Below are positions 1-18,147 of a stretch of DNA of 35,835 nucleotides, piece by piece. The stretch is taken from positions 1 to 35,835 of the forward strand of contig LSCF01000009.1 of the NCBI GenBank assembly GCA_001577025.1, written 5' to 3'. Under the pieces are notes generated by a model that worked only from the letters and a program-made list of their open reading frames with translations, did no database searches and was not told where the DNA came from. Position numbers and translations under genes: made by a program. Every line of letters begins with the position of its first letter. Positions within the stretch are counted from its first letter, which is position 1. This stretch comes from Fidelibacterota bacterium TCS55. GTDB taxonomy: Bacteria > Fidelibacterota > Marinisomatia > Marinisomatales > TCS55.

Positions 1-461
1 TTTACCGAAAGGCAGTGGTCAAGACTTTAGAAATTTATGGTGGCCGTCATCGTTATATCCCTGCATTGGCTGGTCAGAAGAAATTCAATGTGTCTGAAAT
101 TGTGGTGAATCATCGTCCTAGAATTCATGGTGTAACCAAATATGGTGGATCCAGATTATTTCATGGTCTATTTGATCTCATTTCTATTTTATTTTTATCC
201 AAATACACACAAAGTCCGCTTTATTTCTTCGGGCAAATTGGATTATTTACATTTTTAAGTGGATTGGGTATCGAACTATATGTCTTGTATTTAAAGTATG
301 GATTGGGCGAACCTTTCGCAAAACATATGGCGCTCTTAATGCTGGGCGTACTCATTATAGTTGTGGGAATTCAGTTTTTTTCCATCGGATTGGTGGGGGA
401 AATGATTGCCAATTCAAACCAAGATAAAGAATCCCGAGTGAAGGGCATTCTTAAATCTTAA
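1..461 (+). CDS. GT2 glycosyltransferase, C-terminal part (5' end outside window)
   Basis: The reading frame is open from the window edge, so this is the 3' end of a longer gene; a GTG at 15 is not a credible start. The visible part begins inside the glycosyltransferase domain with a YGGRHRYIPALAG stretch, then NHRPRIHGVTKYGGSR. Both are typical of the end of dolichol-phosphate-mannose-synthase-like GT2 enzymes that load a sugar onto a polyprenyl phosphate. Two hydrophobic segments follow, at about 220-285 and 330-410, which fits the membrane anchor of this subfamily. The last residues are charged. The stop lies 18 bases before the next glycosyltransferase, so it is probably the same operon. 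The sugar specificity cannot be read from this fragment. Confidence 0.82.
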   Translation, partial: YRKAVVKTLEIYGGRHRYIPALAGQKKFNVSEIVVNHRPRIHGVTKYGGSRLFHGLFDLISILFLSKYTQSPLYFFGQIGLFTFLSGLGIELYVLYLKYGLGEPFAKHMALLMLGVLIIVVGIQFFSIGLVGEMIANSNQDKESRVKGILKS

Positions 462-479
462 TCGACTTTTAATTTTCTG

Positions 480-1589
480 ATGAAAATTGTTCTTGTTGGG
501 CCGTTTCCGCCTTATCGTGGCGGCATATCCATGTTTAACCATTCTTTAGGCCTTGAATTGGCGAAAAATCACGAAATCCATCGTGTTTCATTTTCTTTAC
601 AGTATCCAAAATCATTATTTCCGGGGAAGTCTCAATATTTTGATTTTGAAGGGGAACCTTCAGAACAATTAATTAATTCAGTCAATCCCGTGTCCTGGCG
701 GAAAACTGCACGATGGATTAATAGAATTCAGCCCGATGCAGTCGTATTTCAGTATTGGATGCCCTTTTTTGCCCCCGGATTTACATCCATCGCCAAACAG
801 GTGAAAAGAAAGTGCGGCGCCAAAATCATTGTAAATTGTAATAATATTACGGCACACGAGCCAAAAATGACTGACCAATTAATGACGGCAAATTTTTTCA
901 GGTATTGTGACGGGTTTATGGTTATGTCCGATACGGTTGAGAATGATTTGAAGTCGATTGAGCCCGATCCAAATTATAGAAAATCACCCCATCCGCTTTA
1001 TGATGTATTTGGAGAATCAATTGACCAGACGGCAGCTAAAACTACATTGGGGATAACAGAAGAAAAAGTCATCCTTAATTTTGGTTTAATCCGGGATTAT
1101 AAGGGGTTAGACTTATTGATTCGCAGTGCAAAAATTCTCAAATCACAATTGACTAATTTTAAGATCCTCGTGGTGGGTGAATGTTATGGCAACGAAAATA
1201 AATATATAGAATTGGCAGAAGAAAACAATGTGATGGATGTAATTGATTTTCGATTTGATTTTGTCCCCAATGAACGGGTTCACGAATATTTTTGCGCAGC
1301 AGATGTGGTAGTCCTTCCTTATAAATCAGCGACTCAAAGTGGGGTAGTGCCAATCGCCTATCATTTTGATCGGCCGGTTGTGGTATCGAACGTTGGCGGG
1401 CTTCCGGAGATCGTAGAACAGGGCAAGTCCGGATTCATTTGTGAACCTAACCCCGAAGAAATAGCAGATGGTATTAAACAATATTTTAACCAATCCTCGA
1501 ATGACTTCAGGCCATTTGTCGCAGAATATAAACATCGATTCTCTTGGTCAAAATATGCAGATACATTATTGGAATTGGTCCAGTCATGA
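480..1589 (+). CDS. GT4 family glycosyltransferase
   Basis: A 369-residue GT-B fold enzyme. The N-terminus has the glycine-rich loop GPFPPYRGGISMF of group 1 transferases. The second half carries NFGLIRDYKGLDLLI, VLPYKSATQSGVVPIAYHF and PVVVSNVGGLPEIVEQGKSGF, the nucleotide-sugar binding region typical of GT4. There is no signal peptide, so it should work at the cytoplasmic face on a lipid-linked acceptor. The family usually retains stereochemistry at the sugar anomeric carbon; donor and acceptor are unknown here. Its stop overlaps the ATG of the next glycosyltransferase by four bases (ATGA), so the two are translationally coupled. Confidence 0.9.
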   Translation: MKIVLVGPFPPYRGGISMFNHSLGLELAKNHEIHRVSFSLQYPKSLFPGKSQYFDFEGEPSEQLINSVNPVSWRKTARWINRIQPDAVVFQYWMPFFAPGFTSIAKQVKRKCGAKIIVNCNNITAHEPKMTDQLMTANFFRYCDGFMVMSDTVENDLKSIEPDPNYRKSPHPLYDVFGESIDQTAAKTTLGITEEKVILNFGLIRDYKGLDLLIRSAKILKSQLTNFKILVVGECYGNENKYIELAEENNVMDVIDFRFDFVPNERVHEYFCAADVVVLPYKSATQSGVVPIAYHFDRPVVVSNVGGLPEIVEQGKSGFICEPNPEEIADGIKQYFNQSSNDFRPFVAEYKHRFSWSKYADTLLELVQS

Positions 1590-2425
1590 ATCATCCATCT
1601 ATCAACATTTTTGTATTAAATTGGAATGGGCGGGACTTGACCATGGATTGTTTGAAATCCATCGAACAAGTAAACTATTCTGCACATAAAGTTTATGTAA
1701 TTGATAATGGATCTACGGATGATTCGGTGTCGGCAATCCAAAAGAAATTTCCACAAGTGGAAATTATTGAGCTAGATCAAAACCTTGGGTATGCCGGCGG
1801 CAATAATGCAGGATTCAAGAAAGCAACTCAATCTGACTATTCAATCTTTTTGAATAATGATACCACTGTTGATCCGGACTTTATTGCACCACTCATACAA
1901 CCAATGGCGCAAAACGAAGGCATTATGCAGACTGCCCCTAAAATTTATTATGCGGATAATCCGAACACCTTATGGTTTGCAGGGGGCAATGTGAATCTTT
2001 TCATTGGGTTAATCCATCATAAGGGCATTCGAAAAAAGGATATAGGTCAATTTGATCAAATTACAGAAATTGGTTATGCCACAGGATGCTGCTTTTGTAT
2101 ACGGTCAAAAGATTTTGAAGGATTGGGTATGTTTGATGAATCCTTCCCTATGTATGGGGAAGATGTGGATTTATCCTTACGTTTAAGAAAAAATGGTGGC
2201 GTTATTCAGTATATTCCAAAATCAATGATTTGGCATAAAGTGTCTGCTTCAATGGGTGGCGGGTATTCCATCTCTAAATGGCGAAAAAAGTTTATCGGAA
2301 AAATGAAATTAATTACCAAATTCACTAATCTATTTATGAGACCAATTGCCATTATTGTGGCCTCCGTTTTTGGCTTTCTTGAACTGGTTGTAACCATATT
2401 ATTTATGATAATTAGGAAAAATTAA
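1586..2425 (+). CDS. GT2 family glycosyltransferase (rhamnosyltransferase-like)
   Basis: A 279-residue GT-A enzyme. I chose the ATG at 1586 over an upstream in-frame ATG at 1544. It overlaps the previous stop as ATGA and is followed at once by the conserved opening beta strand (INIFVLNWNG). DNGSTDDS (about residues 40-47) and NNDTTVD (90-96) form the nucleotide- and metal-binding part. GEDVDLSLRL from about residue 191 is the acceptor and catalytic region seen in rhamnosyltransferase-like GT2 proteins. A hydrophobic segment near the C-terminus suggests membrane association. It very likely adds a sugar to a lipid-linked surface glycan; the exact sugar is not readable. Confidence 0.88.
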   Translation: MNHPSINIFVLNWNGRDLTMDCLKSIEQVNYSAHKVYVIDNGSTDDSVSAIQKKFPQVEIIELDQNLGYAGGNNAGFKKATQSDYSIFLNNDTTVDPDFIAPLIQPMAQNEGIMQTAPKIYYADNPNTLWFAGGNVNLFIGLIHHKGIRKKDIGQFDQITEIGYATGCCFCIRSKDFEGLGMFDESFPMYGEDVDLSLRLRKNGGVIQYIPKSMIWHKVSASMGGGYSISKWRKKFIGKMKLITKFTNLFMRPIAIIVASVFGFLELVVTILFMIIRKN

Positions 2426-3144
2426 TGAAGGGTTATTCTGAAAATTATTGGGCCAAAAGAGCCAAACAGTACAATAAAACAAATTGGGTAAAAAATAACA
2501 GTTTTATTGATGCTTTTATTGGAATGATACCTAACAATCATTATCCCAATATTTTGGAAGTTGGAATCGGGACAGGCGCAGTTGCAGAAAAGGTGTCTGA
2601 AAGAATTGGGCCATTAACGGGAATTGATATTAGTCAAGAAATGATTGATAAAATCAATCATGATGGCATTACACCCATTGTGGCCAATGCCCATAATCTT
2701 CCATTTGAAGACGAATCATTTGAATTAATTTATATGCGAAATGTGATTCATTATATAGACGATCCAAAGAAAGTATTTTCAGAAATATATCGATGCTTAA
2801 AACCGGGTGGTCAGTTTTTATTTTCTCAAGTGGTGCCGCCGGATGATTCGATTTCAAAAGAGTATGATTGGTTAGTCGGGCGAGATATTCATTATCCTAC
2901 AAAAAGAGAAATATTAGGATTATTTTCTTCCTTTCATTCTGTGAAGCAGGACGATTTTGTTTTAGAAAAACAGAGTATCATGAATTGGTTGAATAACACG
3001 TGTCAAAACGAAGATGAAAAAGCAACGATCATCGAGCGTCATCGGGCCACTTCGGGTGCTTATCGCCTCTTATCCAATTATGAAGACGCTTCTGGTGATA
3101 TTTTAGTTGATATTAAACATTTAATGATTTTAGCACAGAAATGA
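2425..3144 (+). CDS. Class I SAM-dependent methyltransferase (UbiE/MenG-like fold)
   Basis: A 239-residue protein with the SAM-binding glycine loop EVGIGTGA (residues 45-52). The acidic residue that binds the ribose hydroxyls follows in TGIDIS (D68). LPFEDESFELIYMRNVIHYI and the LKPGG turn match the methyltransferase 11 domain. The start overlaps the previous stop by one base, and its own stop overlaps the next ATG. In this setting it most likely methylates a sugar or lipid intermediate of the surface glycan, but the substrate is not shown by sequence. The gene looks AT-rich: line 2881-2940 has 16 G/C in 60 bases. Confidence 0.85.
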   Translation: MKGYSENYWAKRAKQYNKTNWVKNNSFIDAFIGMIPNNHYPNILEVGIGTGAVAEKVSERIGPLTGIDISQEMIDKINHDGITPIVANAHNLPFEDESFELIYMRNVIHYIDDPKKVFSEIYRCLKPGGQFLFSQVVPPDDSISKEYDWLVGRDIHYPTKREILGLFSSFHSVKQDDFVLEKQSIMNWLNNTCQNEDEKATIIERHRATSGAYRLLSNYEDASGDILVDIKHLMILAQK

Positions 3145-3815
3145 AACAAATCACGCAAATTATAGCTACTAACTATAAAAACTCTATTTCTTCAAGCAAT
3201 GTGATTGATTTTTGGACTGTCCAAATTTGCAGAAGAATTGCATCAATACTGGTTGCAATACTAATCAAAACACCACTTTCTCCAAATGCAGTTTCTTGGA
3301 TATCTTTTGTAATCAGTCTTTTTGCGGGATTTTTTCTTCTACCAAATTTTTATTTTGTTTCTGCTATGTTATTTTGGCTTTCCTTTGTATTTGATTGTGC
3401 AGATGGTCAGCTTGCATTTGAAAAGAAACAAGTTTCTAACTATGGGAAATATCTAGATCTCTTACTAGATGCACTAAAAGATGTAATAACCTACTCAATA
3501 TTTTTGATATTGTTATACGAAACACCATATAAATGGTTTGCTTTTCTAAGTCTTATAGCAGTCTCAATGTCATTTGTTTTTGATTGGGTGAATAGAACAC
3601 TTGAAGAGGAAGTAAAACCAAGCAAACCTAATGTAGAAAATTCTTTAAAATTAAAATATGGTATTATCTTTTGGAGTGCTCCAATAAGAAATTTTATTAT
3701 TGTAATATCGTTGGTTATAGGGTATCCAAGTATTGTTAGTGTGTACAGTTCAATAATTGGTGGATATCTTACAACTAAGAAAGGATATTTAACTCTATCC
3801 AAAATTAAAAACTAG
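3141..3815 (+). CDS. CDP-alcohol phosphatidyltransferase family protein, copy 1
   Basis: A 224-residue polytopic membrane protein. It carries the CDP-alcohol phosphotransferase signature D85-x2-D88-G89-x2-A92, then G102-x3-D106-x3-D110. This is the metal and CDP-binding site of enzymes that move a phospho-alcohol from CDP onto an acceptor alcohol. One position departs from the usual DGxxAR: residue 93 is Phe, not Arg. The four acidic residues are kept, so activity is plausible. Inside a glycan operon it may build a polar lipid or put a phospho-alcohol on a glycan; that is inference. The start overlaps the previous stop as ATGA. Composition is very AT-rich (16-20 G/C per 60 bases in lines 3541 and 3661). 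Confidence 0.82.
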   Translation: MKQITQIIATNYKNSISSSNVIDFWTVQICRRIASILVAILIKTPLSPNAVSWISFVISLFAGFFLLPNFYFVSAMLFWLSFVFDCADGQLAFEKKQVSNYGKYLDLLLDALKDVITYSIFLILLYETPYKWFAFLSLIAVSMSFVFDWVNRTLEEEVKPSKPNVENSLKLKYGIIFWSAPIRNFIIVISLVIGYPSIVSVYSSIIGGYLTTKKGYLTLSKIKN

Positions 3816-3821
3816 TAAACT

Positions 3822-4667
3822 ATGAAACCTACATTATCAAATCTCAAAAAAGTTATTAGGAAATCTTACGAACCAGAGCCTTATGCTAGATATTTCATTA
3901 GACCAATTTCAATTTTGTTTACTTGGGTCTTTGTAAGGACATCAATTTCTGCAAATCAAGTAACAGTATTACAAGAAATTCTAGGAGTTTTAGGTGCTAT
4001 CTTAATTGGTCTTGGTAATTTGAAGCTATCTCTGATTGGCGTTCTCTTTCTACAACTCGGATATGTCTTGGATTGTAGTGACGGAGAAGTGGCAAGGTGG
4101 AAAAACCAACAATCTGTAAAAGGAGTGTATTTGGACTTAATAGGTCATGTGATTGTGATTCCTTCATATTTATATGCATTTGCGTTTGGTATTTGGATGA
4201 GGACAGGACAAATTGAAGTCTTAGTTGTTGGATTTATAACTGCATTGTTTACTTTAAAATTGGAAAGAGACACTATGTTATCTGTAGTTGATACATTGAT
4301 TACAGAAACAGACAATCCACAATATGATTTTACAAGTTTAACCAAAGAGATAGACAAATCTGATAACAAACTCGAAATGGGTAGTGCTGGTGCAATAGGA
4401 AGAAGATCATTTTTGCAATCATTTTTCAGATATCCAACATCAATGAATGTTATCACTATAGTTTTAACTATTGAATATATTTTTGCTACAAATCGAATAG
4501 AGTTTGAATACTCCTTGTCATATCTTTTGTTAATGTTCTATGGAATTGTTTTATTTTTTGGACGACTTTGGAATATCAAAACAGTATTTTCCAAAGATTT
4601 AACAAAAAAAAGATTTCTGCAAATACTTAAAATTGCACAAAATATTAACGATACTAAGTCGGAATAA
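3822..4667 (+). CDS. CDP-alcohol phosphatidyltransferase family protein, copy 2
   Basis: A 281-residue polytopic membrane protein starting six bases after copy 1. The signature reads D84-x2-D87-G88-x2-A91-R92, then G101-x3-D105-x3-H109. The last position, normally Asp and often proposed as the catalytic base, is His. Compared with copy 1 it has a longer, hydrophilic loop at about residues 150-195 (TDNPQYDFTSL and following). Copies 1 and 2 share only the motif region and general layout, so they are not a recent tandem duplication. Substrate is unknown. It could be an active variant, a regulatory partner of copy 1, or a specialised transferase of the glycan locus. Confidence 0.8.
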   Translation: MKPTLSNLKKVIRKSYEPEPYARYFIRPISILFTWVFVRTSISANQVTVLQEILGVLGAILIGLGNLKLSLIGVLFLQLGYVLDCSDGEVARWKNQQSVKGVYLDLIGHVIVIPSYLYAFAFGIWMRTGQIEVLVVGFITALFTLKLERDTMLSVVDTLITETDNPQYDFTSLTKEIDKSDNKLEMGSAGAIGRRSFLQSFFRYPTSMNVITIVLTIEYIFATNRIEFEYSLSYLLLMFYGIVLFFGRLWNIKTVFSKDLTKKRFLQILKIAQNINDTKSE

Positions 4668-4673
4668 AAAATC

Positions 4674-5124
4674 TTGTCGAACTATACTCCAGCACAGAAA
4701 TTAGCCAAAGAATCTTCCATATCGTTTTCTGGTATGAGTTTTGGGCAGTTTATGCGTTATGTGTATACTGCTTTGTTGGCTCGGTGGGTAGGTGCAGAAT
4801 ATCTTGGAATCTATTCAATAGCAAATGCTGTAACTAGAATTTCTGAAACTATCGGTAAAATGGGTCTTGATACTGGTGTTCTAAGATTTGTTAGTAAACA
4901 TAGTAACGAAATATAAAATATTTGTAACAGAAATGTTGAATCCATTCATTTTGTTACTCGTAATGGTTGTGTCATTCCTTTTTATCTCAAAAGATTATGC
5001 GATTATTTTACCGGTTATCGTATCATCAGTAATAGGATTTATTGTTATCATTGCTTTCTTAAAACGACTTGTAAATGTTGGATTCTCCCAGATTATTTCA
5101 GCATCATATTCTAAAGATTTGATG
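4674..5124 (+). pseudogene. Decayed Wzx-like flippase (internal deletion and frame change, C-terminus lost)
   Basis: From a TTG at 4674 the frame encodes about 75 residues that closely match the N-terminus of the intact flippase at 5244: both have RYVYTALLARWVG and then KMGL(D/E)TG. It stops at 4914-4916. In another frame, from about 4905, the match resumes as KYKIFVTEMLNP, aligned to KYKTMVTQFLNP of the intact protein near residues 153-164. It runs on to about residue 223 of the homologue and then breaks. About 80 codons are therefore missing with a frame change, and more than half of the protein is lost at the 3' side. This cannot make a working flippase. The two copies differ too much for a recent duplication. 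Confidence 0.8.
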
Positions 5125-5247
5125 ATGGATGAAATTAACCTTTCTAATCTCGGGATGAAGGGGAAAAAAGCGGTAGAATCATTGTATAGTGAATCTGTAA
5201 TTATATCAAAACTTGAAGCTATATATAATTCAGTGACATTAGCATGA
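5125..5247 (+). pseudogene. C-terminal tail of a lost GT4 glycosyltransferase
   Basis: Directly after the flippase relic, and in the same frame as its second half, come about 40 codons ending in LGMKGKKAVESLYSES and KLEAIYNSVTLA. This has the shape of the last helices of GT4 glycosyltransferases (GxxGRxxVxxxFSW followed by xxLxxIYxxL). It does not resemble any part of a flippase. The reading is that a deletion joined the flippase relic to the tail of a glycosyltransferase that once ended here. The stop overlaps the start of the intact flippase as ATGA, which suggests the lost gene was coupled to it. The family call rests on a short match. Confidence 0.6.
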
Positions 5248-6743
5248 ATACGGCCAGCAAAATAGCCAAAGAATCCGCCATCACATTTACCGGATTGGTT
5301 TATGGGAATGTAAACCGGTATGTTTATACAGCTTTGCTGGCCCGTTGGGTTGGACCCGAATTCTTAGGTATTTACTCATTGGCCAACTCAATCATGTTGA
5401 TAGCTGAGGTATTGGCAAAGATGGGGTTGGAAACGGGAATTATGCGATTTGTAAGTCGATTAAATCCCGACACCGATCAAGAAAAGATCCAATCTGTCAT
5501 TGGTTCTGCTATCAAAATGACAGCAATTTTTTCATTGGCCATCATGGTTGGGCTCATTGTGTCATCAGGGGCCATCGTTCACCAATTATTGAATGAAAGG
5601 GCATTGCTTGCATCCGTATTAATCATTTTTGCAATCGCCATTCCATTTAATGCTCTTACATTGGTTTCAGCATATGCCACGCAGGGCTTCAAACGGTTAA
5701 AGTATAAAACAATGGTCACTCAGTTTTTGAATCCTACTGTATTGTTGTTTTCAATGATTGGGTGCTATTTCTTTATTTCGGTTGAATCCGCCATTATGTT
5801 TCCAATGCTAACCACAGGCGTGATCGGATTTTTTGTCATGACCAAAGTATTGAAATCTGTGTCCGGTATTCAAGTGGGACAGATGATTGGCGGTTCTTTT
5901 GATCAAGCATTATTAAAATTTTCATATCCCCTTATGTTTGTCACTATCCTGCAAACATTCATGCATTGGATGGACATTCTCATGCTGGGCTATTTTGCCG
6001 ATGCAAGTGTGGTAGGGATGTACCATCCGGCGGTGAGAACAGCGGGACTGCTCCAAGCACTTTTACTATCATTTTTGAGTATTTATGCGCCCATGGCTTC
6101 CCAATTCCATGGTGAAGGGAATAAGGAAAAGCTATCTTCTACCTATCAATTGGTCAGTCGATGGTTATTAATGTGCGCCATTCCCATAGCATCCATATTT
6201 ATTATTTTCCCTGAAAAGGTTTTGCTTCTGTTTGGATCTGAATATGTGGCCAGTAGTCAAATTTTAGTCATCCTTACAGTCGCCACATTGATTCAAGCTA
6301 TCTTGGGCGCTGCAGGACCAACCCTCAGTATGTCTGGTTATACAAGACTGGTATTATGGAACACCATTGGCGCTTTCATCCTTAATTTTGGATTAAATAT
6401 TTGGTTAATTCCTCAATATGGGATAACTGGTGCAGCCATGGCTACTTTGATCTCTTTAACGGCTGTGGGTTTGGCCCGAGTCATTGAAGTGGGCATCATT
6501 TTAAAAATGAGTTTTATCAATCAAAAATTAATCAAGCCGATTATTGCTGGATCCATAACATTTGGAATCCTTGGGCCATTAAAGCCATTCCTTATGGATT
6601 ATCATACATTAATTACTTTAATGATTGCAGGATTAACTTCTGTCCTCATTTTTGGCACCTTGATTTGGCTTATGAAAATTGATGCAGAGGATAAAGAATT
6701 TTTGAACGGGCTTGGTATATTAAAAAGATTAATTAAACGATAA
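5244..6743 (+). CDS. Wzx-like polysaccharide flippase (MOP/MVF superfamily)
   Basis: A 499-residue protein with about twelve to fourteen hydrophobic segments spread along its length, the layout of polysaccharide export flippases. The N-terminus (KIAKESAITFTGLVYG and RYVYTALLARWVGPEFLGIYS) is typical of the bacterial and archaeal Wzx-like group. Its expected role is to move the lipid-linked glycan made by the upstream transferases to the periplasmic face. The ATG overlaps the end of the glycosyltransferase relic, and its stop TAA shares one base with the next ATG. Base composition returns to a higher G/C level than the upstream AT-rich block. Confidence 0.88.
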   Translation: MNTASKIAKESAITFTGLVYGNVNRYVYTALLARWVGPEFLGIYSLANSIMLIAEVLAKMGLETGIMRFVSRLNPDTDQEKIQSVIGSAIKMTAIFSLAIMVGLIVSSGAIVHQLLNERALLASVLIIFAIAIPFNALTLVSAYATQGFKRLKYKTMVTQFLNPTVLLFSMIGCYFFISVESAIMFPMLTTGVIGFFVMTKVLKSVSGIQVGQMIGGSFDQALLKFSYPLMFVTILQTFMHWMDILMLGYFADASVVGMYHPAVRTAGLLQALLLSFLSIYAPMASQFHGEGNKEKLSSTYQLVSRWLLMCAIPIASIFIIFPEKVLLLFGSEYVASSQILVILTVATLIQAILGAAGPTLSMSGYTRLVLWNTIGAFILNFGLNIWLIPQYGITGAAMATLISLTAVGLARVIEVGIILKMSFINQKLIKPIIAGSITFGILGPLKPFLMDYHTLITLMIAGLTSVLIFGTLIWLMKIDAEDKEFLNGLGILKRLIKR

Positions 6744-9094
6744 TGAGCATCAATATGAAATCACCAATCGTGATGGCTACAGCCTTGTTGGTTGTTGTTG
6801 TGGCCTTTTTATTTAATCCGGTAATTTTTGGTGGTAAAACGTTTGGCTCACCCGATAGCCTCAGTCCAAAAGCTGTGGGAATGGCCTTGAATGAAGTGGC
6901 AGAAGAAACAGGTGAGTTTCCTCAATGGCAGCCTTGGGTATTCAGCGGTATGCCATCAGCAGAAGCCTTTACCCATATTTCAAAACTATACTTCCCCGAA
7001 CACCTGTTTAAATTGTTTTTTCTCCCGGGGATGATGATCCAAATGCTTCACCTTATATTCGCCGGGATAGGCTGTATTTTGTTATTGAGGCATTTGAAAT
7101 GCTCACCATTCGCTGCCGCATTGGGCGCAGTAGGATTTATGGTTACCCCCTATATGACGACTATGGTGGTCCATGGTCACGGCAGTCAAATGATGACTGC
7201 AGCATACATCCCATGGATCTTCTGGCTGACCGTTCGGTTGTGGGAGAAACCCAATTTCTGGGATACCGGTTGGTTGGCCATTTTAATGGGATTTCAATTA
7301 CAGCGTGCCCATGCCCAAATCGCTTATTATACTTGGCTCTTAGTTGGTGCATATAGTCTCATGGTATTGGTGAATGGTTTTATCCGGAAACAGAAAAAAG
7401 GTGAATTGTATTCCGGTTTGGGTTTATTTGCAGTCGCCTGTGTTATGGGGATTGGGCTATCATTATTAATTTATTTACCGGCTATGGATTATACACCATT
7501 TTCAGTCCGTGGTGGGGGAGCCAGTGGCGGTGCGGATTATGATTACGCCACCAGTTGGTCTTTTCATCCCAAAGAAATACTTACATTTTTTATTCCCTCC
7601 GCATTTGGTTTTGGCGGACAGCCTTATTGGGGATTCATGCCTTTTACGGATTATCCAAACTATATGGGAATCATTATACTGATTTTGGCTATCATTGGAC
7701 TCGTATCCAAACGAGAATTAATACATTACTTTTTGATTATTACTTCTGCGCTGGCTCTATTGATTTCCTTTGGGAGACATTTTAGTCTGGTTTATGATTT
7801 ATTCTTTAACCTATTTCCTTATTTCAACAAATTTCGCGTTCCCCATATGATACTGATACTTCTCCAATTCAACGTGGCTATTCTTGCTGCATTCGGTTTG
7901 GATGCTGTTGGTGACTTGAAGGAAAAGGTCATACCCAAATGGGGATGGGTATTGGCCGGATGTACAAGTCTTGTATTAATTGGAATGGTGTTGGGTGGCT
8001 CTACGTTGGAATCATTTTTAAGAGGGAGTTTTACGCCACCTCGAGTTCAAGATCCTCGCATGGGGCAGGCCATCAATAATCTTCGTTGGGATCTGTGGCA
8101 ATCGGATGTATGGATGATGCTCTTTTGGATGGGATCATTGTTGGGCATGACATGGTTATGGATTCAGCGGAAGGTGAATAAAAAAATTATGTTATCTTTG
8201 GTTGTTGGATTGGCAATTATCGATATCAGCATCGTCAATCAAAAGATTATTCAACCATCCAGACAGAGTGGCCGCAGTTCGCAGCTCATGGCTACGCGAG
8301 CCGTGGATCGATATTTCCAAGAAGATGAAATCATCCAATTTTTAAAACAGGATCAAAGTGACTATCGGATATATCCCGTGGGACACTTGTTTGGAGAGTC
8401 GAGGTTTGCCGCCTTTCAAATTGAATCTATTGGGGGTTATCATCCTGCCAAGTTAAGGGCATATAATGACTTTTTATCTCAAACTGGAAATGGTGCATCT
8501 ATCCCTGTGCTTCAAATGATGAATGCGAAATATTTAATTAGTCCCGAACCGCTGAATCATCCCGATTTGATTGCTACTAAGACAGGAAGGTTGAAATCAT
8601 CTAGGGGGGAATTAGATGCCCATGTTTATAGGGTGAAAGATGCCTTACCAAGGGTTTGGTTTGTGAACGAATTAAAAACCGTACCAGAGAATGAAGTATT
8701 TAAACAAACCACTTTACAAGCATTTAATCCGTCGCAAACGGCATTGGTTAGCCAAGAAATGACCCAGCCATCTGGTGAACCGGCACAAATAACGAAAATG
8801 GATCGTGGAATTCATCATACTACCATTTATACCGAATCGGAAGGGAATCAATTTTTAGTATTAAGTGAGGTATTTTATCCGGAAAGATGGAAGGCGACAT
8901 TGGATGGGAAGCCAATTGAGACTATAAAGGTAAATGGTATTCTTCGGGGTGTTTCTGTACCGGCAGGGCAACATAAAATTTCATTTACTTACGATCAATC
9001 AACATTTAGTACGGGAAAGACTATTTCATTCATTTCTTTTGCACTCGCTCTAGGGCTGGTCGTTTTTGGATATATTAGACAAAGCCATTCATGA
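6743..9094 (+). CDS. YfhO-like multi-pass membrane protein (putative GT-C type glycosyltransferase)
   Basis: A 783-residue protein. An N-terminal membrane helix is followed by a luminal loop with PQWQPWVFSGMPSAEAF, then about a dozen hydrophobic segments up to about residue 510. A soluble C-terminal domain of about 230 residues comes next (HVYRVKDALPRVWFVNE, then YPERWKATLDG), and one last helix (about 757-777). This layout is that of the YfhO/DUF6541-like family. In Firmicutes, YfhO helps glycosylate teichoic acid using a polyprenyl-phosphate sugar. In this Gram-negative setting it may decorate the exported glycan, and the DPM-like GT2 enzyme at the window start could supply its donor. Function is inferred from family and neighbourhood. 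Confidence 0.8.
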   Translation: MSINMKSPIVMATALLVVVVAFLFNPVIFGGKTFGSPDSLSPKAVGMALNEVAEETGEFPQWQPWVFSGMPSAEAFTHISKLYFPEHLFKLFFLPGMMIQMLHLIFAGIGCILLLRHLKCSPFAAALGAVGFMVTPYMTTMVVHGHGSQMMTAAYIPWIFWLTVRLWEKPNFWDTGWLAILMGFQLQRAHAQIAYYTWLLVGAYSLMVLVNGFIRKQKKGELYSGLGLFAVACVMGIGLSLLIYLPAMDYTPFSVRGGGASGGADYDYATSWSFHPKEILTFFIPSAFGFGGQPYWGFMPFTDYPNYMGIIILILAIIGLVSKRELIHYFLIITSALALLISFGRHFSLVYDLFFNLFPYFNKFRVPHMILILLQFNVAILAAFGLDAVGDLKEKVIPKWGWVLAGCTSLVLIGMVLGGSTLESFLRGSFTPPRVQDPRMGQAINNLRWDLWQSDVWMMLFWMGSLLGMTWLWIQRKVNKKIMLSLVVGLAIIDISIVNQKIIQPSRQSGRSSQLMATRAVDRYFQEDEIIQFLKQDQSDYRIYPVGHLFGESRFAAFQIESIGGYHPAKLRAYNDFLSQTGNGASIPVLQMMNAKYLISPEPLNHPDLIATKTGRLKSSRGELDAHVYRVKDALPRVWFVNELKTVPENEVFKQTTLQAFNPSQTALVSQEMTQPSGEPAQITKMDRGIHHTTIYTESEGNQFLVLSEVFYPERWKATLDGKPIETIKVNGILRGVSVPAGQHKISFTYDQSTFSTGKTISFISFALALGLVVFGYIRQSHS

Positions 9095-10266
9095 GCCATT
9101 ATCGTAATAGTAGCAATATTAAACTGGCCCTCATCGCCGTTGGGTTCATCCTCATTATAGGCCTGTTAGCTTATTCCAATTCCATCGTAAATCAACTCCG
9201 TGATGATAATAGAGAAATTGTAAAAGTATATTCTGAAATCATCGCCAAAACAGTGAATGAAGAATCCGATGCCAATTTGAGTTTTGTTTTTGATGAAATC
9301 ATTAAAAAAGTTCAATTCCCAATTATTTATTCGGATGCAGAGCAAAACCCGGTTTATTCAAGAAATTTAGGCGGTAGTATATCCCCTGAAGCCTTGCGAA
9401 AACCCATGGCCGCCATGGATCGCCAAAATGAACCAATCCCGATCGCATTTAATGATCCAGCATCTGTGGAACCAATTTTATTGGGGTATCTTCATTATGG
9501 TGATTCTGATTTGATTCGAAAATTGCAATGGCTACCCTATCTCGAAATTGGGGCAGTTGCTTTATTTATATTTGTCGGTTTTATTGGGTTTAATGCAATC
9601 CGAAATAGTGAAAAAAGAAATATATGGGTGGGCATGGCAAAAGAAACAGCCCATCAATTGGGAACCCCTGTTTCTGCACTTATGGGATGGGTGGATCGGA
9701 TTAAGATGCATCCCGAAGAATCAAAAATTGTGGTCGATGAAATGGAATCGGATTTAGAAAGATTAAACCAAATCGGAAATCGATTCAGTAATATGGGCTC
9801 AGATGCACCTTTAAAACCCATGTCCTTAAAATCCTTGGTGAATGAACAGACAGTGTACCTAAAAAAACGAATGCCGTCTTTGGGGAAACAAATTAAACTC
9901 ACTGTCAATGCACCGGATGATATTACCGTTTTGGGAAACCCAACCTTATTAGGTTGGGCCATTGAAAATGTGATTCGCAATGGCATGGATTCTATTAAGC
10001 ATGATCAGGGAAAGGTCAGTATTACCGTATCTGGTCTGGGTGAGCATGGCATTTTGTATATTCAGGATAATGGAAGTGGGATCGATAAAAAGAATTGGAA
10101 AAATATATTTCGTCCTGGGTTCAGCACGAAACAACAGGGTTGGGGATTGGGATTATCATTAGTGAATCGAATCATCAATGAGATACATGGTGGACATATT
10201 GCCGTAATCCAAAGCGAGCCTGACATAGGGACCACTTTTGAAATCCGATTAAAAAAGAACGCTTAA
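9091..10266 (+). CDS. Membrane sensor histidine kinase
   Basis: A 391-residue protein. One membrane helix (about 11-30), a periplasmic domain of about 115 residues and a second helix (about 150-170) are followed directly by the kinase core, with no clear HAMP domain. The phospho-acceptor box is ETAHQLGTPVSAL with H188. The ATP-binding domain shows the N box (N293 and N297 in ENVIRNGMD), G1 DNGSGID (326-332) and GWGLGLSL (350-357). No response regulator gene is adjacent, so the partner must lie elsewhere. The start overlaps the stop of the YfhO-like gene as ATGA, so it is made together with the glycan locus and may sense envelope state. Confidence 0.9.
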   Translation: MSHYRNSSNIKLALIAVGFILIIGLLAYSNSIVNQLRDDNREIVKVYSEIIAKTVNEESDANLSFVFDEIIKKVQFPIIYSDAEQNPVYSRNLGGSISPEALRKPMAAMDRQNEPIPIAFNDPASVEPILLGYLHYGDSDLIRKLQWLPYLEIGAVALFIFVGFIGFNAIRNSEKRNIWVGMAKETAHQLGTPVSALMGWVDRIKMHPEESKIVVDEMESDLERLNQIGNRFSNMGSDAPLKPMSLKSLVNEQTVYLKKRMPSLGKQIKLTVNAPDDITVLGNPTLLGWAIENVIRNGMDSIKHDQGKVSITVSGLGEHGILYIQDNGSGIDKKNWKNIFRPGFSTKQQGWGLGLSLVNRIINEIHGGHIAVIQSEPDIGTTFEIRLKKNA

Positions 10267-14825: not shown

Positions 14826-16879
14826 TGGCTTTCCTCTTTCCGAATATTTTGTGGGGATTGCTGGCTGCATCCCTGCCGCTGGTCATCCATTTGATTAGTT
14901 TGCGCCGGACAAAAACGGTGGCATTTTCATCTATCCAGCACATTAAGGCATTAGAGCATAATGCCATTAAAAAATTAAAAATTATGCAATGGATCCTTAT
15001 TGCCTTGCGTATGACAATCATTGCTGCATTGGTGCTGATGGTGTCGGGGCCAATCCAAGTGAATGATGCGGCATGGGTACCCAGTGAAAAAGAATCGGTG
15101 GCGGTTATGATTATTGATAATTCAGCCAGTATGGCTGTGACTAAAGATCGGGACTCATTTTTAGATCAGGCAAAATCAGAAATACCGGACATTTTATCCA
15201 GTTTCACTGGTTTGGTTCATTTACGTGTCATGCAAACTTCTCCGCCAAAAGAAATATATTCAGGCACTATTGAGCCGGGAGATCAAATCCATCCTGATCG
15301 TTGGCCCATTAAACAATCGGCCAGTCAGGATGATCTTTGGGCGGTCATAGATGAAACATTGTCCAATACCAATGCAAATATGCCAAACCGTGAATGTTTT
15401 ATACTTAGTGATTTTCCGTCATCACCTCCCTCGTCCATTAAAGAGAGTTTTCCCGAATGGCGGTTTTATGGATTTGGAAGAGCGCCTCTGGTAGATAATG
15501 TTTCTGTGAATGAATTAGTTGCATTGAGCCAAATCAAATTGCCAAATCATTTACTAAAGTTGAATACTAAAATTGAAAATATGGGGTCGGTTGAAAGACG
15601 AAATGTTCCTGTTGAATTATATTTAAATGATGAACGAGTCGGCCAGATTGTATCTCATTTTCAACCCGGGCGATTAAAAGATTTCCTCTTTCAGGTATAT
15701 CCGGGAAAAAGTGGTGTTGTACGCGGGAAATTGGAATTACCTCATGACCACTTTTCATTGGATGATCGACAAACATTTGAATTAAATATCCCTGAACAAA
15801 TATCGTGTAAAGTCATTGCAAGCTCCCAAGCGGATTTGTTTATGCTGCGCACTGTATTGGAATCCATCAACGGTCAGGATCGGTTATTAGATCTTGAGCT
15901 AAAAGTGCTTCCGCAGATTGAAAGAATTTATTTAGAAGAAACGGATGTATTGATTCTCCAGGACCCAAAATCATTTACGCCGAGCGCGATTGAATCTATC
16001 AAAAGGTTTTTGAATCGAGGGGGAAGCATCCTATGGTTTGCGGGCACGAATTATCCATCTCTTGAATCGGTAACATTTTCAAATTTGCAATTACCAACCA
16101 TGGGTGAGCAAATAATGCTGGATGGATCGTCTTATTTTTCTGTCCGTATTGATGACCGAGATAATCCATTGCTTCAGGAGTTAAACCTCCGCGATTTAGA
16201 AGAGGCATTGCCTCAAGTGTATGGATATAATCAAGTCTCGCCCAAACAAGGACATAAGCAGATTCTGTCTTTAAATAATGATGATCCTTTCCTAATGGAA
16301 ATTCCATTTGGAGGTAGTCAAATTTATTTGTTTACATCGCCATTGGATCTTCGATGGAATGATTTTTCCATGAAAGGATTGTTAATACCTATGATTCATC
16401 GGTTACTTATTTTGTCTGCAACAGATGAATTGAATACAGGGATGGTGGTTGTGGATTCACCAAAGACCATTCGCATCCCCAAAGAATTGATTAATCAAAA
16501 ATGGGCGATTGAAACACCTTCCGGCAATCGGATTTTGGTCGTCCCAGATTATAATAAGGGAGCGATCGTTTTTGAACAAACGAACGAATTAGGATCCTAT
16601 GAAGTATATGCCGGCTCTGAATTTTTTACTGCATTTTCTACACGTCTTTCCCCTTATGAATCTCCCAAGTTACGAACATCGACCAATGAGATTGTCCGGG
16701 CGGTTGGGGCAGATAAAATGGTATGGCTATCCCCCGGAACACCCATAAAAGAAACTATTGAGTCTCAACGCCACGGCCGTGCCTTATGGCGGACATTCTT
16801 AATTATTGCACTCGCCTTATTTATGATTGAATCTTACCTTAGCCGTCCCAAACGGGATGGAATGAAAACAAAAGCATGA
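14825..16879 (+). CDS. BatA-like protein with VWA-type domain
   Basis: A 684-residue membrane protein. Residues 1-75 form the BatA N-terminal domain: FLFPNILWGLLAASLPLVIHL, RRTKTVAFSSIQ, then a second helix. A von Willebrand A-like domain begins near residue 90 with MIIDNSASM, a usable DxSxS metal site. A beta-rich middle follows, then a segment resembling a glutamine-amidotransferase fold (FLNRGGSILWFAG, about 395-407). One helix lies near the C-terminus. The order is that of the double-helix BatA/DUF4159-type proteins common in Bacteroidetes and relatives, whose roles are poorly known. No MoxR ATPase or other Bat gene is in the window, which is unusual for classic Bat operons. Confidence 0.8.
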   Translation: MAFLFPNILWGLLAASLPLVIHLISLRRTKTVAFSSIQHIKALEHNAIKKLKIMQWILIALRMTIIAALVLMVSGPIQVNDAAWVPSEKESVAVMIIDNSASMAVTKDRDSFLDQAKSEIPDILSSFTGLVHLRVMQTSPPKEIYSGTIEPGDQIHPDRWPIKQSASQDDLWAVIDETLSNTNANMPNRECFILSDFPSSPPSSIKESFPEWRFYGFGRAPLVDNVSVNELVALSQIKLPNHLLKLNTKIENMGSVERRNVPVELYLNDERVGQIVSHFQPGRLKDFLFQVYPGKSGVVRGKLELPHDHFSLDDRQTFELNIPEQISCKVIASSQADLFMLRTVLESINGQDRLLDLELKVLPQIERIYLEETDVLILQDPKSFTPSAIESIKRFLNRGGSILWFAGTNYPSLESVTFSNLQLPTMGEQIMLDGSSYFSVRIDDRDNPLLQELNLRDLEEALPQVYGYNQVSPKQGHKQILSLNNDDPFLMEIPFGGSQIYLFTSPLDLRWNDFSMKGLLIPMIHRLLILSATDELNTGMVVVDSPKTIRIPKELINQKWAIETPSGNRILVVPDYNKGAIVFEQTNELGSYEVYAGSEFFTAFSTRLSPYESPKLRTSTNEIVRAVGADKMVWLSPGTPIKETIESQRHGRALWRTFLIIALALFMIESYLSRPKRDGMKTKA

Positions 16880-18147
16880 TTGATAATCCAGAAATAAAAA
16901 AGAAGGAGAAAGCAATCCTCATCGGGGTTATTCATGGCGAGTTGAATTTACCCACCGTAGAAGAACATCTAGAGGAATTAGAGTTGCTGGCCAAAACGGC
17001 CGGGGCAGATGTTGTGGGACATGTGACACAAAAACTTTCGCGTATTAATCCTTCATTTTTTTTAGGTACAGGCAAGGCGGAACAAATAATTAATCAAGCA
17101 AAAGAATTGGGTGTATCTCTCATTATTTTTGATGATGAATTGAGTCCGGCCCAAATCAAAAACTATAGCAATTTAGCCAAGGATATGAAGGTCATCGATC
17201 GCAGTGCCCTCATCCTGGATATTTTTAACCAGCATGCCCAGACCAAAGAAGCGAAAACCCAGGTTGAACTGGCCCGGTTGGAATATATGCTGCCGCGGTT
17301 GACACGGGCATGGACACACCTAGAACGGCAAATGGGCGGCATTGGTACTCGGGCCGGTGCTGGTGAAACGCAGATTGAGGTGGATAGACGATTAATTCGA
17401 ACCCGAATATCGAAACTGAAAAAAGAATTAAAAAAAATTGACAGGGAGCGAGAAACCCAAAGTAAACGAAGGGGAAATCAATACAAAGTAGCACTAGTTG
17501 GATATACAAATGCCGGCAAGTCCACTTTAATGAAAGCAATTTCCGGTGCGGATGTATTAATTCAAGATCAGTTATTCGCTACTTTAGATACCACCATTCG
17601 TTCCGTGGATCTGGATAATGCCCATTCGATTCTGTTAAGTGATACGGTTGGATTTGTTAGAAAATTACCCCACCATTTGGTCGCCAGTTTTAAAAGCACA
17701 TTAAAAGAGGTGGTGGATGCAGATTTAATTCTAATCGTTTTAGATGCGTCCTCTAAACAAGTCACAGACCATTATGAAACCATCGTTGATGTATTGAAAG
17801 ATTTGGGCGCTGAACGCCACACGAACTTAATTGTTTTGAACAAGGTAGATAATGATGCAGTGCAAAATCAAGTGGCTTATCTCAATCGAATATTTCCTGA
17901 AGGAATATTTGTATCCGCACTCAATCAACTTCGGATAGATCATTTATCAAACGAGATTACACAAATTATGGATGAAAAATTTCAGGTGGTGGATCTCCAA
18001 TTTTCATATTTGGATTCAAAAGCCATGGCTCAGGCTCAAGAAGGGGTGGACGTCTTGGAGCGGCATTACCATGATGACTACGTCCATTTAAAGGTGAAAG
18101 GATCTCGTCACCGAATCAGTCAAATTCAATCCACATTAGGGAAATAA
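16876..18147 (+). CDS. hflX: GTPase HflX (ribosome-associated)
   Basis: A 423-residue GTPase. The N-terminal HflX domain ends in the family signature GGIGTRAGAGE (154-164) followed by a Lys/Arg-rich coiled segment (170-202). The G domain has GYTNAGKST (G1, 209-217), DTVGF (G3, 256-260) and NKVD (G4, 322-325). HflX binds the 50S subunit and can split stalled ribosomes after stress. The ATG overlaps the previous stop as ATGA, so it is the last gene of the yajC-to-hflX run. A strong terminator follows immediately. Confidence 0.96.
   Translation: MIDNPEIKKKEKAILIGVIHGELNLPTVEEHLEELELLAKTAGADVVGHVTQKLSRINPSFFLGTGKAEQIINQAKELGVSLIIFDDELSPAQIKNYSNLAKDMKVIDRSALILDIFNQHAQTKEAKTQVELARLEYMLPRLTRAWTHLERQMGGIGTRAGAGETQIEVDRRLIRTRISKLKKELKKIDRERETQSKRRGNQYKVALVGYTNAGKSTLMKAISGADVLIQDQLFATLDTTIRSVDLDNAHSILLSDTVGFVRKLPHHLVASFKSTLKEVVDADLILIVLDASSKQVTDHYETIVDVLKDLGAERHTNLIVLNKVDNDAVQNQVAYLNRIFPEGIFVSALNQLRIDHLSNEITQIMDEKFQVVDLQFSYLDSKAMAQAQEGVDVLERHYHDDYVHLKVKGSRHRISQIQSTLGK

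Follow-up and report, generated by a model that had tools for sequence, protein, structure and literature searches.

Probable scar at the right-hand end of a horizontally replaced cassette in a Marinimicrobia surface-glycan locus

Gene remnants in polysaccharide loci are already known from the O-antigen clusters of Salmonella, in which wzy remnants are found in groups B1 and D1 and group D2 is a D1/E recombinant with a remnant at the junction (PMC3715488). These clusters have a variable middle between conserved flanks that is reassorted by recombination, and the degraded pieces of a processing gene record a former type. Type VI effector modules of Vibrio cholerae have been displaced in a way that left resident genes behind, which was attributed to homology-facilitated illegitimate recombination (PMC5361080), a process described in transformable bacteria (PMC3240628). 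In these modules, one homologous anchor and one non-homologous join enclose the incoming DNA, and resident leftovers lie beside it. A search for O-antigen in Marinimicrobia returned no relevant paper in the literature collection used.

Here, we analysed a stretch of 35,835 nucleotides (the window; contig C89) from a metagenome-assembled genome of Marinimicrobia (1.72 Mb, 98 contigs), the only genome of its species in the comparison; the named relatives belong to Candidatus Neomarinimicrobiota. We conclude, with a probability of about 0.88, that positions 4674-5247 are a scar left at the right-hand edge when a cassette in a conserved surface-glycan locus of Marinimicrobia was replaced by horizontal transfer. 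As in Salmonella (PMC3715488), a variable middle lies between conserved flanks and pieces of a processing gene, wzx here instead of wzy, remain as a record. Unlike in Salmonella, we could identify the two parental forms, the remnant derives from the donor and not from the resident, the join showed no insertion sequence, and the exchange crossed the boundary between orders. The value of the case lies in the parental forms and the product being seen together.

Across the class, the locus has the fixed frame GT2a-GT4a-GT2b ... flippase-YfhO-HK with a variable middle. The order in the window, all on the + strand, is GT2, GT4, GT2, methyltransferase (MT), CDPB, CDPC, relic, Wzx-like flippase, and YfhO-family protein. 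The conserved left flank (3..2425), comprising GT2a (truncated by the contig end), GT4a, and GT2b, has 78-97% amino acid identity to a sister species and 46-54% to a more distant genome, G182, and its gene order is identical in G182 and G155. The resident MT gene (2425..3144) is the last conserved gene left of the swap. On the other side lies an intact resident Wzx-like flippase of the MOP superfamily (5244..6743; PF01943, E 4e-19; MatE, E 1e-18), with 88.6% amino acid identity to the sister and 48% to G182. The conserved right flank begins with a YfhO-family membrane protein gene (6743..9094; PF09586, E 1e-13), which comes after the flippase in the relatives examined. Between MT and the relic are two intact, apparently imported genes for CDP-alcohol phosphatidyltransferase family proteins, CDPB (3141..3815; PF01066, E 2e-14) and CDPC (3822..4667; PF01066, E 2e-7). 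In the CDPC family, the CDP-alcohol transferase motif D..DG..AR...G...D is retained, except that the last D is H (DLxGH) in 6 of the 6 copies compared, namely the window's own (3822-4667) and relatives in L160, L162, L167, L169, and L121. The R of the AR pair is absent from CDPB in both the window (AF) and G182 (AI).

The sister species (locus L043; genome G005, isolate BH1), whose DNA is ~80% identical, has a complete resident form of the locus, in which MT is followed by the CDP-alcohol transferase gene CDPA, the glycosyltransferase gene GT4b, and the flippase gene. Window positions 1-3144 align to L043 4988-8130, and 5112-11995 align to L043 9869-16752 without interruption from the GT4 end through into the flippase, both at 80-81% DNA identity. 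Between the aligned blocks, L043 holds CDPA (8127-8804) and the complete GT4b (8811-10004), which has a four-base overlap with the flippase start. The window has neither CDPA nor the body of GT4b, and a search of the genome with the sister's GT4b protein found nothing of the rest of it elsewhere. The loss of genes at this site, as proposed in a preliminary description of the DNA, is therefore borne out. However, the larger ancestral glycan locus proposed there is not needed, because the interval between MT and the flippase holds two other genes in the sister at a similar total length (1.74 kb versus 1.97 kb in the window). The CDPA-GT4b pair is also found at the equivalent place in G004 and G008, and with extra genes in G002, G009, and G010, so this arrangement is likely the older form of the locus.

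A search with the relic across the phylum found an 89% match in G182, which belongs to the same class but to a different order. On contig C6 of G182, the order is GT2a-GT4a-GT2b-MT-CDPB-CDPC-flippase-YfhO-HK, with an intact flippase of 502 aa, and the DNA is alignable to window 2680-4900, resuming at 4909 after a 224-base jump. The window now contains CDPB, CDPC, and the first part of a flippase, which match G182 in kinds and order. The order CDPB-CDPC-flippase is also present in G185, while CDPC adjoins the flippase in G183 and is its nearest same-strand gene in G192; as CDPC-type genes lie near the flippase in all four genomes, the cassette type is native outside the window's order.

The protein identities to the sister and to G182, respectively, switch along the locus: 82 and 47% for GT4a, 78 and 47% for GT2b, 86 and 56% for MT, then 33% (partial) and 61% for CDPB, 37% (partial) and 79% for CDPC, 62 and 89% for relic piece 1, 41 and 56% for relic piece 2, and again 89 and 48% for the flippase, 87 and 47% for YfhO, and 88 and 40% for HK. 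The flanks are thus 78-97% identical to the sister and 40-56% to G182, whereas the best relative of CDPB in the phylum is that of G182 C6, and its 33% identity to the sister's CDPA extends over 92 residues only. In a maximum-likelihood tree of 146 shared positions, the relic is grouped with G182 and the intact flippase with the sister (ultrafast bootstrap 98 each). This confirms that the two flippases are diverged and come from different lineages; a paralogous duplication of the local flippase is ruled out, as the relic groups with another order. The phylogeny of the cassette accordingly conflicts with that of its flanks, and resident genes of a close relative are missing. That one polysaccharide type replaced another, as had been suggested, agrees with the finding of both resident (L043) and donor-type (G182) loci.

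CDPB and CDPC are intact and constrained (dN/dS against G182 of 0.17 and 0.11). At third positions, the cassette is only ~51-65% identical to G182, which is a donor-type genome and not the true donor. We considered a mosaic origin inside the cassette, where 3820-4900 exceeds its surroundings in DNA identity to G182, and rejected it, since the third-position identities are fairly even (58, 65, 60, 61, and 51%); the higher identity reflects mostly constraint.

When the intact flippase was aligned in all frames with 4668-5247 by tblastn, two collinear pieces were obtained, residues 4-72 in frame 1 (62% identity, E 1e-29) and residues 153-224 in frame 2 (39% identity, E 4e-16). A whole-genome search with the same protein found these pieces (at 4689-4904 and 4903-5124) and no further flippase copy elsewhere in the genome. 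Relic piece 1 (4674..4904) has a TTG start and corresponds to donor-type flippase codons 1-75, its frame ending with TAA at 4914-4916; it has 89% amino acid and 83% DNA identity to the intact G182 flippase, and about 60% amino acid identity to the local one. Relic piece 2 (4909..5121), in a second frame that runs on from 4888 (TTG) or 4933 (ATG) into the GT4 tail without a stop, corresponds to residues ~154-224 and is 56% identical to the G182 flippase over 71 residues. The N-terminal segment of 75 residues and the later segment in a new frame were thus described correctly. The pieces meet at an internal deletion junction (4905..4908; refined breakpoint about 4904-4909), where the frame is broken and 224 nt are missing relative to the intact G182 gene (alignment offset from 3954 to 4178).

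Both the relic pieces and the intact gene are members of the Wzx-type flippases (MOP superfamily, Pfam Polysacc_synt), but the relic lacks residues ~76-153 and everything past ~224 and therefore cannot be a transporter; no working flippase is made from it. Its status as a relic is supported by the 245 genomes of the phylum, in none of which the short frames were seen as separate, conserved genes, the matches being full-length or contig-cut flippases. The dN/dS values of the pieces (0.06 and 0.11) still look like those of a constrained gene, indicating little decay since breakage, and their identities to G182 (89 and 56%) are within the range of intact flippase pairs.

The relic is followed by what remains of the lost resident GT4 glycosyltransferase gene, its final ~42 codons (5119..5247), whose stop overlaps the next ATG (ATGA), a GT4b/flippase junction that is identical in L043. 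A GT4 tail ending on the ATG of the intact flippase had been predicted, and residues 350-395 of the sister's GT4 protein (L043 8811-10004) indeed match window 5101-5238 (54% identity, E 7e-9). Thus, the tail matches the C terminus of a complete GT4 at the equivalent position in a close relative, with 60% amino acid and 67.5% DNA identity to L043 GT4b. The profile search proposed for it failed, as the 119-aa frame holding the tail had no glycosyltransferase match in Pfam or NCBIfam because the tail is too short; the sister's GT4b protein was the decisive query. With a dN/dS of 0.31, compared with 0.05-0.13 for the neighbouring genes, the tail is the most drifted part.

The right-hand junction between donor flippase and resident GT4 could be refined to about 5113-5122 (5113..5122), not 5125: the window matches G182 to about 5121 and L043 GT4 from about 5112, with at most a few shared bases, the parents being known via the proxies G182 and L043 only. 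As this junction joins unrelated genes, it is probably illegitimate. On the left, the per-15-codon DNA identity of MT favours the sister to codon 225 and then the donor (69 versus 81%), a switch that rests on about 10 informative bases, with part of the MT end common to other genus members. The final ~10 MT codons may be donor sequence, and the left crossover would be placed, with low precision, at or in the last ~15 codons of MT, a gene common to donor and host.

This pattern would fit homology-facilitated illegitimate recombination. Incoming DNA may have recombined at or in the homologous MT end on the left and joined illegitimately inside the GT4b end on the right, so that a 2-kb donor segment would have replaced the resident CDPA and most of GT4b, with the 224-nt internal deletion arising at the swap or later. 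With the right-hand junction falling short, such events would have broken the donor flippase and retained the resident one, matching the present state, in which CDPA is gone, ~42 GT4b codons are left, the donor flippase ends at residue ~224, and the resident flippase is intact; the latter presumably exports the product of the new cassette. The V. cholerae modules (PMC5361080) also have resident leftovers beside the incoming DNA and would be alike in their one homologous anchor and one non-homologous join, and in both systems the mechanism has been inferred. However, the leftovers there are functional immunity genes, whereas the GT4 tail and the flippase head here encode nothing complete. Nothing clearly above chance was found for a promoter or terminator in the scar.

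The preliminary description had read 4674-5247 as a double deletion in a locus that once held two flippases. The comparison shows replacement instead. As the relic represents the start of the flippase that came with the cassette, a deletion has to be assumed for the 224-nt gap only. Nor did two working flippases have to coexist in the locus, since truncation of the donor gene at residue ~224 may have preceded its arrival. A related history in two steps, in which the entire donor cassette, including an uncut flippase, first entered upstream of the resident GT4b-flippase pair, and CDPA, the bulk of GT4b, and portions of the additional flippase were deleted afterwards, would give an identical end product, and at least one deletion (224 nt) inside the relic did happen. 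We nevertheless regard this history as unlikely, as it takes more events, no trace is left of CDPA or of 89% of GT4b, whose place is exactly that of the cassette, and none of the relatives examined showed a second flippase in the locus. The search of relatives for a complete locus had anticipated such a second flippase; it did yield the complete loci of L043 and G182. An assembly error, by which two strain variants of the locus were fused in silico, is far less probable still: strain variation in such loci is expected in a metagenome-assembled genome of 98 contigs, but at the right junction the run of bases common to the parental proxies is well below 10, which would not suffice for k-mer joining, and a second independent error would be required for the 224-nt internal gap.

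In a further reading, the scar itself would be in use, with the open frame 4933-5247 translated as a leader that passes ribosomes to the resident flippase via the ATGA overlap; the dead gene junction would then have been kept for translational coupling. ATGA gene pairs are known to be coupled by termination-reinitiation (PMC6728339, PMC10666635). In nearly all relatives, a 4-nt overlap links the flippase start to the stop of the gene before it, regardless of which gene this is, and the start has no clear Shine-Dalgarno sequence. Relic piece 2 also shares its frame with the tail and is stop-free from the ATG at 4933. On the other hand, in-frame joining is expected by chance in 1/3 of cases and explains the frame equally well, the tail alone would preserve the ATGA, and the tail evolves faster than every neighbouring gene, as a relic would. 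We therefore consider both the leader and its retention for coupling doubtful.

The genes between GT2b and the flippase differ among the loci of the genus, indicating that cassette exchange is general in it, and the window stands alone among about 27 related loci in showing a scar of this kind. The close relatives G001 and G009 (L044 and L051) are 60.5% identical in the flippase, 85% in YfhO, and 89.5% in HK, a clean exchange of the cassette plus flippase. Although relatives thus show that the flippase can travel, in the window it did not come along with the new cassette. Cargo specificity among such flippases ranges from strict to relaxed (PMC6436433). The swap provides a natural test of how closely a Wzx-like flippase and its cargo must match, and it records a switch of surface-glycan type between bacterial orders in an uncultured marine phylum.

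A few further observations were made in the related loci. A 5.8-kb contig (G158 C94; L164/L045) that was assigned to a genome of another order encodes a flippase and a YfhO protein that are 72-74% identical to those of the window and are as in the window's genus, and another contig of that genome (C43, L168) carries the GT2a-GT4a-GT2b flank of the other order; C94 is probably a contaminating contig. In L051, about 2.3 kb of extra DNA (15025-17381) lies between the histidine kinase gene and the next conserved gene, compared with about 60 bases in the other loci. Finally, tblastn detects in L115 (9395-10012) a full-length homologue of the 211-aa gene left of GT2a that is not among the open frames of at least 150 aa listed there, which points to a sequencing error, a frameshift, or an unusual start codon.
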